Origin: Neorhizobium galegae bv. officinalis
GTDB taxonomy: Bacteria > Pseudomonadota > Alphaproteobacteria > Rhizobiales > Rhizobiaceae
Direction: 5' to 3'
NCBI GenBank assembly: GCA_000985875.1
Contig: CCRI01000011.1
Location: 124,001 to 188,000, forward strand
DNA: 64,000 bases
The translations under genes were made by a program, and so were the position numbers. Shown piece by piece: positions 32,746 through 37,837 of this stretch. Numbering within the stretch: position 1 is the stretch's first letter; each line of letters begins with the position of its first letter. A model generated the notes under the pieces. The model did no database searches. It had not been told where the DNA came from and was given only the letters and a program-made list of their open reading frames with translations.

Positions 32746-33022
32746 AAAGCACCCCTTTCCGATCTATATATCGGCTCCCTTTTTGATCTAGCTGTGCATG
32801 CTGAAGGCGAGCCAAGCGGCGCAGGTCATTTTCGACCCCACACCGACCCAAGTGACAGATAAGTACGGCAGAACAGTGATTCAAGTCATCACAGAAGCGT
32901 TATATCATTACGTATTGGTAATATACCTGCTTCAATTGTTGGTATTGAAAGCGCCCGACTTGCAATTTAACCATGGGAGGGGATCTGGGCCAGCAACGGC
33001 TTACTACGAGGGGACAAGAGCT

Positions 33023-33703
33023 ATGAAAAAACGTGCCTCCAGGATGCGCCGCGCCAGTGGCCTGGCGATTTTTTTCGTTTTGGCTGCGCCGACGCTGGCA
33101 TTGGCGCAGGATGCCCAGGATCGGGCCGGAGAGCTCAAGGCCTGGCGGGAGCAATGCAACGATCCGGATCCGGACCTGCGGCTTGCCTATGTGGAGAAGG
33201 CGGTCGCTGGGGGTGACGCTGCCATCCAGCGCATCTGCACCCGCCTCGCGCTCGACAGCGACAATGCCGATATCCGCAATCTCGGACTGCGCACCGCCGT
33301 GGCGACCCTGCCGCAGATCCGCTTCTCGGTGGAGATCCCGCCCCAGCTCACGGCGGCCATCAAGGCCGCGTCCGGCAACGAGAAGAAGATGGCCGAACTG
33401 GAGCGCTCGTACATCATGCGCAGCTGGCAACTGATGCAGAACGGCCTGGTCTTCGAGATCGACGGAGCCGAACCGGGTACGAGCAATTCAGTCTGGTATC
33501 CGATGGTGGGCCTCAATGACCGAAACAACAACTACAAGGGAAAGACGACCATTGTCGGCTCCCGCCTGAACTGGCTCGGACGTGCCAACCTGCCGCAGGG
33601 GGAGTGTTCGCTCAACATTCAGTTGAAGGCCGGTTCCGAACTTGCCGGCACGTTCCAATGCGCCGACGCCTGGCCTTTCGCGGTGTCCGCCAAGCTGCTT
33701 TGA
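33023..33703 (+). CDS. Exported protein of unknown function
   Basis: A 226-residue protein with a basic N-terminus (MKKRASRMRR), a hydrophobic signal and a cleavage site near ALAQ. The mature part has a helical N-terminal half (AYVEKAVAGGDAAIQRICTR) and a beta-rich C-terminal half with GNxNxx-like loops and two Cys (GECSLN, FQCAD) that could form a disulfide. No family was recognised. GAGGGGACAAG precedes the ATG. It converges with the protease-like gene, with stops 10 bases apart. Confidence 0.65.
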   Translation: MKKRASRMRRASGLAIFFVLAAPTLALAQDAQDRAGELKAWREQCNDPDPDLRLAYVEKAVAGGDAAIQRICTRLALDSDNADIRNLGLRTAVATLPQIRFSVEIPPQLTAAIKAASGNEKKMAELERSYIMRSWQLMQNGLVFEIDGAEPGTSNSVWYPMVGLNDRNNNYKGKTTIVGSRLNWLGRANLPQGECSLNIQLKAGSELAGTFQCADAWPFAVSAKLL

Positions 33704-33713
33704 CGCGCGGAGG

Positions 33714-34844
33714 TCAGCGAAGCTTCAGGCCGGACAGTTTCACCGGTTCCTTCGCCTCGATTCGCAGGCGAAGCTGCCGAGGCCCGTTGAGGTTGACGCG
33801 GCAGGGTGATGCTCCGGCGCTGCCGGTCTGGCATTTGCCGACATAGTTCCAGGCGCTGTCTCCCGGCCGTCGCTCGTCGACCCAGAAGGTTCTCGTGCCG
33901 CCCGTGCAGTTCCCCTGGTGTTGGAACTCTATCGTCTCGACCCGGTCGAGCGTGTCGGCGAGTTCGATCGTCAGTTCGACGTCGCCGCGTCCGCCATCTG
34001 CCGCGGCCCGGAAGCAGCCGGATCCGGACTGGAGAGCGGAGGGGCCGTCGCTGCCCTTGAGAAGCAGGGCGACGTAACCAAGCACGGTATAGGGCACGCC
34101 ATCCGCTGCGGCGCGGCTACCGCGCCGCTTGGCGGAGTCGTTGCTGTCGATGGCTGCAAACCGCTCGCGGATGTAGTCGAAGCGTATCGCCATGACCCCG
34201 GACTGGTCGGCCGGTACCCGCGTGATCATCGCGAAAGGTACCGGACTTCCCGAACGCTCGCTCATCACGATCGCCCCGCTCAGCCCCTTTTGGAGAAAGC
34301 CCTTGTCGGATGCATCCGGCACCTGGAACTGCAGGATGGCACCGCCATACTCGTCGACGCCGCCGCGCTTCAGGGCGACCTCGAAATTGCCGTAGCTGGT
34401 CCTCAGCATGCTGAAGACATTCATGCGCGGAGCCGAAGCGAGCAGGTTGTTGTAGACGAATGTCGGCGGGCCGAGCCGGGACAGACAGGCGCCGTCCTTG
34501 CGTCCGCTTGCGACGCGGGCGAAGGCGAGGTCGGCGGCGCGCTCCTCCATGGGCGTCTTTGGAGCATCGATGGCGCCGGAGACCGGTCGTACGCTTTCTC
34601 CGCCCACCGCATTCCGATCGGTGAAGAAGAACGGCTGCAACTCCTTGGTTTCCGGCGAGGCGACAACATGGGCGGGAACGGCGAGCCAGCACTCGCCGGG
34701 ATTGATGCCTGCCGAGCCGAACAGCCAGGCCTGCCCGATCTCGCCATTGCGCGAGCGGACCGATACGGGTTCCGCCCTGGCATCGGAGAGAAGCAGAGCC
34801 GCAAGGCCCAATGCAATGCCGATTGGACGGGTAAAGCGCCTCAT
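33714..34844 (-). CDS. Exported trypsin-like serine-protease-fold protein
   Basis: A 376-residue protein with a signal peptide to about residue 24. His59 in LAVPAHVV, Asp105 in RAADLAFARV and Ser189 in KGLSGAIVM sit in the order and contexts of the trypsin-like triad. The region after about residue 260 is a separate Cys-containing beta-rich domain ending VKLSGLKLR, perhaps ligand-binding. The protease fold is inferred from motifs only. It is the last gene of a three-gene unit and overlaps the membrane protein gene by one base (TAATG). Confidence 0.6.
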   Translation of the reverse strand: MRRFTRPIGIALGLAALLLSDARAEPVSVRSRNGEIGQAWLFGSAGINPGECWLAVPAHVVASPETKELQPFFFTDRNAVGGESVRPVSGAIDAPKTPMEERAADLAFARVASGRKDGACLSRLGPPTFVYNNLLASAPRMNVFSMLRTSYGNFEVALKRGGVDEYGGAILQFQVPDASDKGFLQKGLSGAIVMSERSGSPVPFAMITRVPADQSGVMAIRFDYIRERFAAIDSNDSAKRRGSRAAADGVPYTVLGYVALLLKGSDGPSALQSGSGCFRAAADGGRGDVELTIELADTLDRVETIEFQHQGNCTGGTRTFWVDERRPGDSAWNYVGKCQTGSAGASPCRVNLNGPRQLRLRIEAKEPVKLSGLKLR

Positions 34845-35851
34845 TACTGCTTCTTCTCCGGATCCCGCCAAAGGCCCATCCAGCTCGCGACCGCTGCCAG
34901 CACGCCGCCGAAGACGATGACGAAGCCGGTAATGACGATTGCGTGCGAATCCGCGAATGTGCTGGTCAGCAGGCTGAGGCCGAGCGTTTCCATCTCATCC
35001 CGGCGGGTGCCGGGCCGGTAGAGCTGAAGTGTGTTCGATATGGTCGTCGCCGAAACCTGCAATCCTTGCTCGACCGGAATCGCTGCGCCGTACCAGGCGG
35101 CAATCGCCGGATCAACCGGCTGCTTCGGGTCCAGGTTATCGCCGCCGGACAGGCGGCTGCCGATGGGAAGCGGAAACTCGGCGTCCGCCACGGGCACTAG
35201 TAGTTCGCTGAAATAGGTGCGGTTGAAGACCCTGACGCGCCCTTCCCACAGGATGTCGTAGATGCGGGAAGTCGTCCCGGTCGGCATGACGGGCACGCCG
35301 AATTCCTGCCCGATATCGGCCGGGCCGGCGATCGGTAGCGGCCGGACCAGTTCGGCGGCGTTGGTGATCCGCACCGTCACGGGCTCCACGAGGTCGCAGT
35401 CTGCCCTGCCAGAAGATTGGAAGGTGGCCGCGACCCTCGTTCCCTTTTCGCTGACAAGCCTGCCGCCGACGATCTGAATGGCGATCCGGCCGGCGCCGGC
35501 GCGATAGCTGACGATAGCGCCTTCCGAGGGCTGCAAGAGGCCGGTGACGCGCGGTGAAGGATCGCCGGCCAATGCGACGCAGCCTTCCGCCGACGCGATC
35601 AGCGTCGCATTGGTCAGCGGGATCGTGGCGATCAGCGGCCTGACCGCGCGGTAGCGCACCAGTTCGGACACGGCATCGACGGACGCATAGAGCTCCGATC
35701 TGGACAGTTGCCGAAGCGCGAGGAATGCGATGGAGGTCAGGATAAGCGCGATGACGATCAGGTTCGTCGCGCCTTTCGTAGTCAGGTACTTGGCGACCTT
35801 GGTTGCCAGCCATTTCGCTCCGGTCGAAACGCGCTTGCCCACGATCTTCAT
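34844..35851 (-). CDS. Two-pass membrane protein of unknown function
   Basis: A 335-residue protein with a membrane helix near residues 28-46 (NLIVIALILTSIAFLAL), a periplasmic middle with two Cys (EGCVAL, ADCDLV), and a C-terminal helix (AIVITGFVIVFGGVLAAVA) followed by a short WRDPEKKQ tail. No family was recognised. It lies between an exported Cys-containing protein gene (four-base overlap) and the protease-like gene (one-base overlap), so the three products probably act together at the inner membrane. Confidence 0.65.
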   Translation of the reverse strand: MKIVGKRVSTGAKWLATKVAKYLTTKGATNLIVIALILTSIAFLALRQLSRSELYASVDAVSELVRYRAVRPLIATIPLTNATLIASAEGCVALAGDPSPRVTGLLQPSEGAIVSYRAGAGRIAIQIVGGRLVSEKGTRVAATFQSSGRADCDLVEPVTVRITNAAELVRPLPIAGPADIGQEFGVPVMPTGTTSRIYDILWEGRVRVFNRTYFSELLVPVADAEFPLPIGSRLSGGDNLDPKQPVDPAIAAWYGAAIPVEQGLQVSATTISNTLQLYRPGTRRDEMETLGLSLLTSTFADSHAIVITGFVIVFGGVLAAVASWMGLWRDPEKKQ

Positions 35852-36594
35852 CTATTGCGTCTCAGCGATACGAGCACCGGTTCCTTTTCGGTCGCGAAGC
35901 CGTCATCCATGGCGATAACGAAGCGGGCGTTCTCATCCTGGACGCCGCGAACGTTGACCCGGCATTCCTGGTCGAAGGCGATTCGCGCTCCGCTCGCGGG
36001 GGCGCCGCAGGCGATGTCGCTGGCGCCTGCCGGCGCCTCCAGGGTGACCCTTCGGGAGCTCGCATTGATCATGATGGTTAGCACATCGGCGTTCGCGCCG
36101 GTTCCGAGCTGGGGGAAATGCAGCGCGCCATCCGGAATGCAGTCGCTGCCTTTCGCCTCGAAGACCTTGAGAGCGTAGTCCCTGCCGTCGTAGCCGGACA
36201 GAGCTGCTCTATGTTTTCGCGTTACCGGAGAAATCCGGACGCTTTTCGCCGTCTGCGTACTCGTGATTGTATATTCGTTGTTGGCCGAGTAGCGGCCGTC
36301 GCGGGTGAGGGCGCGGACGCACACCAGCGTTTTTTGCGTCATGGCGAAGCGTACGTTTTCGGGATCGAGCTTTCCGGGCGTATCGCCGAGCCTCAGGCCG
36401 ACGACCACGCCTCCTGAGACCGCAGCGCTTTCGTCATAGCTCTCGCGGAAATTTTCCCCCGGCGTGGCGACGGCGACCTCCTGCGCGAATGCCGGCACGG
36501 AGGTTATGGGCGCGAGCCACAGGAGAGCGGCCGTGAGCCATCGACCGGATATAGACAGCCGGTATCGCCGATGCCATCCCCCAATCCGCAACAT
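35848..36594 (-). CDS. Exported protein of unknown function, first of a three-gene unit
   Basis: A 248-residue protein from the ATG at 36594, with a signal ending near PAFAQ. The mature part is beta-rich with Cys in LVCVRAL, SDCIPDG, IACGAP and QECRVNV, enough for two disulfides. The longer frame to 36768 has no signal-like start. No family was recognised. Its stop overlaps the start of the membrane protein gene by four bases. Confidence 0.6.
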   Translation of the reverse strand: MLRIGGWHRRYRLSISGRWLTAALLWLAPITSVPAFAQEVAVATPGENFRESYDESAAVSGGVVVGLRLGDTPGKLDPENVRFAMTQKTLVCVRALTRDGRYSANNEYTITSTQTAKSVRISPVTRKHRAALSGYDGRDYALKVFEAKGSDCIPDGALHFPQLGTGANADVLTIMINASSRRVTLEAPAGASDIACGAPASGARIAFDQECRVNVRGVQDENARFVIAMDDGFATEKEPVLVSLRRNR

Positions 36595-36814
36595 GCCCTC
36601 CCGCCTATTCGCCCTGGAAGACGTCGATGGACAGCCAACGACCTCAATGATTGCGTGGCTGGGCGCATATCCGGTCCGCGCAGCCATGCAATCGGAAATA
36701 GAGCAAATCCGAATGGCTTTCACAAGACACCGAAAAGGTGAAGGGCAGGATGGGGTTGTCCTCGTCACAAGGGCAAATCGCCGAGATTTTCAGCGAATCC
36801 GTGGCGGACTGCGC

Positions 36815-37600
36815 CTACCGATAGACGCGCTCCGAAAAGGCCCGCATGCCCGACCGTACCATCAGTTCATAGACCATGCGACGGCTCATCGGATTGTGCA
36901 ACCGTGCTACTTTCGAGCCGAGAAATTCCGTTTCCACATGGTCGAAGGCGATGAGGTCTGCGGCCTCGGCGATCACCTTCAAATAGAATTCGTGGAATTC
37001 TTTGCGGCAGACATAGGTCTTGTACTTGGTCATGCAGAAGGTCGAGAACGTGTCCTTGCGCTCCCGCAGGAAGTCCGCGACACCGACGGTCACCTCCGGC
37101 CAGGCCGGATTGAACGTATCGTCGAAGGCAATGATGCCGTGGTCGGCGAGCGTGTCCGTCGCAAGCCGGCTGTCGGCCGTGATGTGCTGCAGCGTATGGC
37201 CGCCGTCGATGCTGAAGAAGCGGGTGCGGCCGACCTTGCTGGTGATCTCGTCGGCCTGCATCAGGGTGCTGTCACCCTTGATGATCAGCTCCTCGTCCAC
37301 GTCCAGACCCAGCCGGCGACCATTGGCGAGAAACTGGCCGTATTGCGTCGGCGCCCCGTCCGACGCCTGGCCGATATCGAAGAGATCGATCGCCAGGATC
37401 TTGTCCCCGCCGTTATTGACCTTCTTCATAAGGAAATAGGAGCGTCCGTAAAAGACGCCGATCTCGGCAATGCCCCCGCCTAACCCATTTTTCTTTTGTG
37501 CCTGCAGAAGAGTCAGGAAAACCAGCGCGTCGGGTGGGTCGATATAGCCCTCGATCGTCTGCAGGTCATGAAAGATGAACTTCCGGAGGCTTGAGTTCAT
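36815..37600 (-). CDS. Class I SAM-dependent methyltransferase
   Basis: A 261-residue protein. GGIAEIGVFYGRSYFLM near residue 47 is the SAM-binding motif I, ILAIDLFD follows as motif II, and FFSIDGGHTLQHITAD and GIIAFDD match Methyltransf_24-like enzymes, many of which work in sugar or surface polysaccharide pathways. The substrate is unknown. The ATG at 37600 has GAGGG upstream. It is monocistronic, and the 237-base region before it holds repeats. Confidence 0.75.
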   Translation of the reverse strand: MNSSLRKFIFHDLQTIEGYIDPPDALVFLTLLQAQKKNGLGGGIAEIGVFYGRSYFLMKKVNNGGDKILAIDLFDIGQASDGAPTQYGQFLANGRRLGLDVDEELIIKGDSTLMQADEITSKVGRTRFFSIDGGHTLQHITADSRLATDTLADHGIIAFDDTFNPAWPEVTVGVADFLRERKDTFSTFCMTKYKTYVCRKEFHEFYLKVIAEAADLIAFDHVETEFLGSKVARLHNPMSRRMVYELMVRSGMRAFSERVYR

Positions 37601-37678
37601 ATCGTGCGCGTCCCTCATTATTCTATTTGTTGTGCTTTTGATAAATACATCGCGCACGATGCACGGCTTGGGCCGGAG

Positions 37679-37709
37679 ATTTATTTTGGTAGTGCAGACA
37701 TTTATTTTG
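37679..37709 (-). repeat. Tandem ATTTATTTTG repeats before the methyltransferase gene
   Basis: ATTTATTTTG occurs at 37679-37688 and 37700-37709, 21 bases apart (two helical turns), 79-109 bases before the methyltransferase start. AGTGCA and TGCACT-like halves flank the second copy. The spacing suits paired regulator sites. Confidence 0.4.
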
Positions 37710-37837
37710 CACTGCAGCAATAGGGACAAATAAAGCAAAACTTTGACGGCGATTTGACTTGTGGACAGTCGCGATGATTCCGATCATGACTCGGATTTAT
37801 TTCGACATGTCTTTGCTTTGCCTAGTTCTACAGAACT

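Follow-up and report, generated by a model that had tools for sequence, protein, structure and literature searches.

Within a 64,000-nucleotide stretch of Neorhizobium galegae bv. officinalis (NCBI GenBank assembly GCA_000985875.1, contig CCRI01000011.1, positions 124,001 to 188,000 of the forward strand; hereafter the window) lies a set of four genes, here called A, B, C and D (Table 1), which an original prediction made from the sequence alone had described as three overlapping minus-strand genes with a convergent fourth. All four frames were open at the positions in Table 1, and the layout was found as described. The minus-strand genes are read in the order D-C-B, with an overlap of 4 nt between D and C and a single nucleotide (34844) shared by the stop of C and the start of B; B and A converge with 10 bp between them.

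Table 1. The four genes, features of protein B and the inserted stretch; positions are those of the window.
Feature	Position	Strand	Description
Gene A	33023..33703	+	226 aa; export-like N-terminus, HEAT-like repeats, additional C-terminal part
Gene B	33714..34844	-	376 aa; protease-like protein, export-like N-terminus
Gene C	34844..35851	-	335 aa; two-pass membrane protein, ~250 residues separating the spans
Gene D	35848..36594	-	248 aa; export-like N-terminus; four invariant Cys (92, 152, 196, 211), invariant N177
B trypsin/HtrA-like domain	34140..34772	-	~residues 25-235, approximate bounds; HtrA1 chain and Trypsin_2 profile matches
His59 codon of B	34668..34670	-	
Asp105 codon of B	34530..34532	-	
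Ser189 codon of B	34278..34280	-	
B C-terminal discoidin (F5/8 type C)-like domain	33717..34112	-	~residues 245-376, approximate bounds; PDB profile match
Inserted stretch with A-D	32927..36818	no strand	3.9 kb; comparison with genome G174

A, C and D adjoined B in 23 of 23 opened B loci, a sample that is not fully independent because A, C or D gave the first lead to several of its loci. The loci came from 16 genomes (the window's own, G000, and G159, G202, G167, G406, G411, G437, G240, G297, G357, G499, G606, G624, G633, G849 and G915) and seven plasmid records (two of Rhizobium leguminosarum, one each of Bosea and Paracoccus JCM7685, and three of Cereibacter sphaeroides; Tistrella was counted with G849). 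The cleanest counts come from searches with B: all five matches other than the window's own in the class search hold the four genes, as do G159, G202 and G167 in the genus search. A to D are inherited together as one unit. The original prediction had proposed a check of co-occurrence across genomes; that check showed the set to be conserved and excluded a lack of conserved neighborhood, which the prediction had named as refuting it. Damage was seen in two of the 23 loci: an in-frame stop interrupts A of G357, and the C. sphaeroides MBTLJ-13 locus (L102 4156-7639) has broken C and D frames and a cut A while B stays open, perhaps through sequence error or decay.

Searches at several depths led to these loci. 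A near-identical set was found in N. vignae. Among 151 sampled genomes of the family, C matched only its own genome, and B matched its own genome plus one weak hit (G078, E 6.6e-4) that contains a stop and was discarded. In 72,556 plasmid records, searches with the proteins located C in Bosea vestrisii and D in two R. leguminosarum records, and A in records of Bosea, R. leguminosarum (two) and Paracoccus aminovorans (two); four of these records were opened, and the A, C and D matches lay together in all four. With layout-II B proteins (see below) as queries ten plasmid records were matched, seven of C. sphaeroides, two of Paracoccus and one of Tistrella; four Cereibacter records and one Paracoccus record with a B match lie outside the neighborhood count. 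In the order, a B profile matched 8 of 397 genomes. The matches in G000, G406, G411 and G437 were retained, and the short ones in G206, G297, G337 and G443 (E 0.003-0.007) were treated as chance; G297 holds the set elsewhere. The A profile matched 11 of the same 397, eight with the set (G000, G240, G297, G357, G406, G411, G437 and G499) and three without it (G206, G363 and G586). At class level it matched 9 of 385 genomes, six with the set (G000, G606, G624, G633, G849 and G915) and three without (G626, G642 and G774), and the B profile matched 6 of 385, which were the identical six carriers. A deeper B profile run against the genus matched 5 of 57 genomes: G000, G159, G202, G167 and, partially, G170 (E 1.8e-4, profile positions 218-325 only), whose locus lies outside the neighborhood count.

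Early profiles missed or barely saw some members (B of Bosea at E 0.92 and its D at E 0.15; C of Paracoccus undetected; C of three layout-II loci assigned by position only), and profiles were therefore rebuilt without the tested locus and its near relatives. These leave-one-out profiles recovered every aligned member, with worst E values of 2.6e-20 for A, 1.2e-37 for B, 8.2e-20 for C and 1.5e-23 for D; profiles that lacked the Cereibacter and G167 loci recovered these too.

Selection on the genes was assessed by the ratio of nonsynonymous to synonymous substitution rates (dN/dS), using a simple Nei-Gojobori count on three sequences, the window and its near relatives G159 and G202. Values were 0.08-0.15 for A, 0.10-0.12 for B, 0.21-0.29 for C and 0.24-0.32 for D, and by this count all four genes are judged to be under purifying selection. 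Because dN/dS is low in near relatives and the four are kept adjacent in distant ones, the frames are not chance. The set also looked like a mosaic between species: in the comparison of the window's set with L007 and L008, C of the window and of N. vignae differed by a dS of 0.49, as against 0.18 for A and 0.11 for D, and B and D are further from G159 (dS 0.37 and 0.24, respectively). Gene-wise recombination between the sets of different species seems likely.

The loci fell into two layouts. In layout I, carried by G000, G159, G202, G406, G411, G437, G633, the two R. leguminosarum records and Bosea, D, C and B are co-directional and A is convergent with B. In layout II, carried by Paracoccus, three Cereibacter, G167, G240, G297, G357, G499, G606, G624, G849 and G915, D and C are co-directional, B is divergent from D, and A is still convergent with B. 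In a maximum-likelihood tree, 18 B proteins divided into nine and nine by layout (100/100). Comparison of layout I with layout II in hhalign gave probabilities of 98.9% for A (P 3e-17), 99.6% for B (P 5e-24), 95.9% for C (P 5.5e-9) and 99.5% for D (P 9e-23), whereas the 12 unlike pairs reached at most 6.2%; like thus matched like, and all four families are therefore common to both layouts. Distance matrices of A to D correlated with rho 0.57-0.81, with 0 of 2000 permutations as high (14 loci; near-identical loci removed, and G357, whose A is not intact, left out). In two layout-II loci A is duplicated in tandem (L046 7354-8585 and L075 7423-8687), the second copies being recovered at E 2.3e-20 and 2.9e-36.

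Protein B had been singled out as protease-like, with His59, Asp105 and Ser189 as its key residues. This numbering was correct, and the three residues, together with G187, G190, C52 and C120, were invariant in 18 of 18 aligned B proteins, 15 of which share only 17-34% identity with B of the window. All 18 keep the His-Asp-Ser order and a G-x-S-G motif around the nucleophile. As a single query, B of the window matched no PDB chain at E 1. The B profile gave 17 PDB matches at E <=1. Its first half accounted for ten, all HtrA1 chains (best E 0.043), and its second half for seven, namely the F5/8 type C chains 6tr3 and 6tr4 (E 0.0033) and five weaker ones (hyaluronidase, chitobiase and one uncharacterised protein). 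The Pfam family Trypsin_2 (PF13365) matched 4 of 18 B members at E <=0.1 (E 5.5e-5 to 0.011), and the C-terminal domain had no Pfam match among B members. Taken with the Trypsin_2 matches, the triad makes a trypsin-like fold likely for B, and the weak PDB matches suggest a trypsin/HtrA-like domain followed by a discoidin-like one. B shares with HtrA/DegP an export-like N-terminus and the His-Asp-Ser order, and HtrA1 chains (10 of the 17 matches) were the only protease chains that its profile found. In contrast to HtrA/DegP, B members had no PDZ match in Pfam searches and do have the discoidin-like match, and B is tied to three partner families and is accessory and patchy. The genome of the window has six Trypsin_2 loci, and B is not among them.

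Export and membrane features of A to D were judged by hydropathy alone. By this crude measure an N-terminal hydrophobic stretch was present in 16 of 17 proteins each of A, B and D, the exceptions being B of Paracoccus, D of Bosea, where the start may be wrong, and A of R. leguminosarum, where the stretch is weaker. C had been predicted to be a two-pass membrane protein, which agrees with hydrophobic segments at about residues 28-46 and 304-322 and with two or more hydrophobic spans in all of 17 C proteins; it had no relative in Pfam or PDB sequences. For D the description as Cys-rich was generous, there being only four Cys in 248 residues, yet all four, as well as N177, were invariant in 18 aligned relatives. 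D had no relative in Pfam and one chance-level PDB match. The A profile matched alphaRep HEAT chains in PDB (best E 7e-4), and HEAT_2 gave a faint match in 4 of 22 A members (best E 0.0014). A thus resembles HEAT-repeat proteins in its N-terminal part, and differs from them in its additional C-terminal part and export-like N-terminus; no named subfamily was matched. None of the window proteins had an accepted match in Pfam, NCBIfam, PADLOC or PHROGs, the best sub-threshold ones being FAM194 for C (E 0.2) and the PADLOC model RT_I-B for A (E 0.037). The claim that no gene belongs to a known family therefore holds for the window proteins themselves and gives way for their relatives, through the faint Trypsin_2 and HEAT matches.

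The surroundings of the set bear on its mobility. Its flanking genes are, as we take them to be from their protein sequences, rpoH and a methyltransferase gene, and the set stands beside rpoH in 3 of 57 genomes of the genus. In G174 some 18 bp separate the rpoH flank from the methyltransferase gene where the window has 3.9 kb, and among the matches listed the two adjoin in at least 28 of 54 other genomes of the genus. Gaps, read by hand from the match table, were 11-38 bp in at least 22 genomes and 59-204 bp in at least 6 more, where the flank was partly unaligned. In G167, of the same genus, a layout-II set lies on a contig different from that of its rpoH flank. In the B tree the window belongs to a clade of five rows (97/90) that does not include R. 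leguminosarum, a member of the window's family, and members of one family (f41) occur in both layouts. The set is also found on plasmids, including plasmid pC of C. sphaeroides 2.4.1, where A is DQL45_RS22020, B RS22025, C RS22035 and D RS23585. The patchy spread, the insert at rpoH and the B tree fit horizontal transfer of the set. The methyltransferase-like gene (36815-37738) is itself patchy in the genus; among the matches listed, none lay beside rpoH in G157, G160 and G200.

A-type domains also occurred outside the set. One in G586 (L077) is part of a fusion with a caspase-domain protein, one adjoins a caspase-domain protein in G363 (L074), and one in G206 (L073) adjoins an FGE-sulfatase/SH3 fragment at a contig end; the signal-like starts of these proteins were judged by eye. 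The G586 locus (L077 8022-15958) holds three neighboring caspase-type proteins, one of them A-fused, of which two were recognised by Pfam and the third by a home-made profile only. Beyond C in C. sphaeroides MBTLJ-13 and MBTLJ-20 come, on the D-C strand, two small unnamed genes and then a gene annotated as caspase-family (L102 1442-5034 and L104 1446-5205); in C. sphaeroides 2.4.1 the matching caspase frame is cut off where the stored circular record ends. The Cereibacter caspase-family protein has a signal-like start and presumed His and Cys motifs. The fusion, the adjacency and the Cereibacter neighbor raise the possibility of a broader arrangement, this module included, in which the same partners serve trypsin-like and caspase-like proteases. 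An exclusive role of A as a caspase partner was considered and dropped, as A-type domains occur in two longer proteins without a visible caspase domain, and once alone. In the two longer proteins (L094 4990-6540 in G626 and L095 5394-6764 in G642) the domain is C-terminal, behind middles that look coiled-coil by eye; the lone A-like protein is in G774 (L096).

Flank scans covered 78 of 112 flanking proteins from 15 loci, in lists of 42 and 36 chosen crudely as the longest frames. A consistent defence context was not found: among the matches listed, no Pfam or PADLOC family exceeded two flanking proteins in either list (42 and 36), and named flanking families were mostly metabolic or transport (best 25 of 54 and 25 of 48 Pfam families). 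There were single strong PADLOC matches in the flanks (L043-L049 and L067-L078; best 25 of 58 families in the second list), including Upx (8.5e-77), SspH (3.5e-58), PDC-S54 (8.9e-33), BrxHI (1.5e-25) and others. No phage relatives were found in phage records or in viral contigs, the latter searched with two window proteins and one layout-II B at a reach of close relatives only.

Among the matches listed in searches of open-licence PubMed Central papers, none described the A-D set, and the accession numbers of the Cereibacter caspase and five B proteins occurred in none of the papers searched. The enzyme B is most likely of a known fold, and the three partners and their arrangement are absent from the libraries and the literature listings searched. 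The closest published logic, by analogy and on the sections of the paper considered here, is that of antiviral nuclease-protease pairs and caspase-nuclease (canu) loci, in which a trypsin-like or caspase-like protease is paired with a gated MBL nuclease (Tuck et al., PMC12799240). There too a partner protein occurs with either type of protease; here, unlike the systems in those sections, B is partnered by HEAT, membrane and four-Cys proteins, and A, C and D of the window gave no match to a nuclease family (Pfam, NCBIfam, PADLOC). Prokaryotic metacaspases are described, in the passages drawn on here, as abundant in Alphaproteobacteria; some have an N-terminal helix, perhaps a signal peptide, and some have FGE-sulfatase domains (PMC3501461). 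The A-type proteins that stand with two caspase-domain proteins and, in a third genome, beside the FGE-sulfatase/SH3 fragment recall this, whereas B is serine-protease-like and A, C and D have no mention in those passages.

Taken together, the original prediction of a coupled exported set was upheld, with export-signal and membrane proteins co-inherited around a protease-like B whose triad is intact, and its reading as an envelope complex, perhaps a regulated protease, appears strengthened and remains the best one; its further suggestion of a surface defence system drew no consistent support from gene context. We think it plausible, at even confidence, that A to D form one accessory, horizontally moved envelope proteolytic module, with C and D as anchor or sensor, B as a gated protease and A as its partner. 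C would anchor the module in the inner membrane, and D would bind the periplasmic part of C as sensor or scaffold. B would be a periplasmic serine protease, held by its discoidin-like domain to envelope glycan or to C and D. A, a HEAT-repeat protein transcribed towards B, may be an adaptor, substrate or inhibitor that binds B or its product. When C and D sense a disturbance, the activity of B would be released in the envelope. A bolder version, which we hold tentatively and consider rather doubtful, is that of a new envelope protease class in which a C-D sensor gates B acting on or through A, with A shareable with exported caspases; this would make it a periplasmic counterpart of cytoplasmic trypsin/caspase immunity and cell-death modules.

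Several results weigh against this proteolytic module. No B reached the Pfam cut-off for Trypsin_2 (best 24.4 versus 27.6 bits), and the four matching B proteins are all of layout I, with no match for any layout-II B or for B of the window. Against three HtrA-type proteins of its own genome B reached only P 0.003-0.004 and 4-8% probability in hhalign; His and Asp were in register and a reversed control gave P 0.43, but this comparison alone is not evidence, because the best unlike control pair reached P 0.006 and 6.2%. AlphaFold models of B and C, built on a two-sequence alignment (window and N. vignae), were unusable, with predicted local distance difference test (pLDDT) scores of 37 and 32. 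The split into two layouts drives part of the agreement between the distance matrices. As for the caspase link, the home-made profile found no caspase gene in the fetched stretches of the other opened four-gene loci, which leaves it in one lineage only, nor a caspase neighbor of the A-type domains at the opened loci of G626, G642 and G774.

The weak scores of B against active protease families are what a pseudo-protease would give, its trypsin-like fold serving only as a binding domain. We consider this very unlikely, as His, Asp, Ser and both glycines are invariant in all 18 proteins despite the low identity of 15 of them, as in a working active site. An inhibitor or toxin-immunity arrangement is less improbable, though still unlikely: B would be a harmful exported protease directed at competitors or invaders, A its periplasmic immunity protein, and C and D would serve display or delivery. 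That A faces B in the opened loci, is duplicated in L046 and L075 and occurs alone in G774, as orphan immunity genes do, agrees with such a role, but among near relatives B shows strong conservation, Pfam searches with the window proteins and B members gave no toxin-delivery domain, and the fusion of an A-type domain to a caspase-domain protein fits a regulatory domain better than an immunity protein.

The set could instead be a maturation or assembly machine, in which B processes D or C into a surface structure with A as chaperone and without a role in defence or stress. We give this the same low probability as toxin-immunity. It would account for the linkage of the export-signal or membrane proteins D and C to B in the opened loci, and for flanks that are mostly metabolic or transport; yet A to D of the window matched no family of pili, fibres, anchors or secretion (Pfam, NCBIfam, PADLOC, PHROGs), and the patchy spread points to a conditional benefit. 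The envelope proteolytic module thus stays our preferred reading.

Four families without an accepted name are one inherited unit across several families of Alphaproteobacteria, on chromosomes and plasmids alike. What would be read as four "hypothetical proteins" per genome becomes one testable system with a predicted enzyme at its center, and the copy in C. sphaeroides 2.4.1 makes direct testing easy. If the proteolytic reading is true, these bacteria carry a mobile, possibly gated protease that acts outside the cytoplasm, with a possible tie to exported bacterial caspases.

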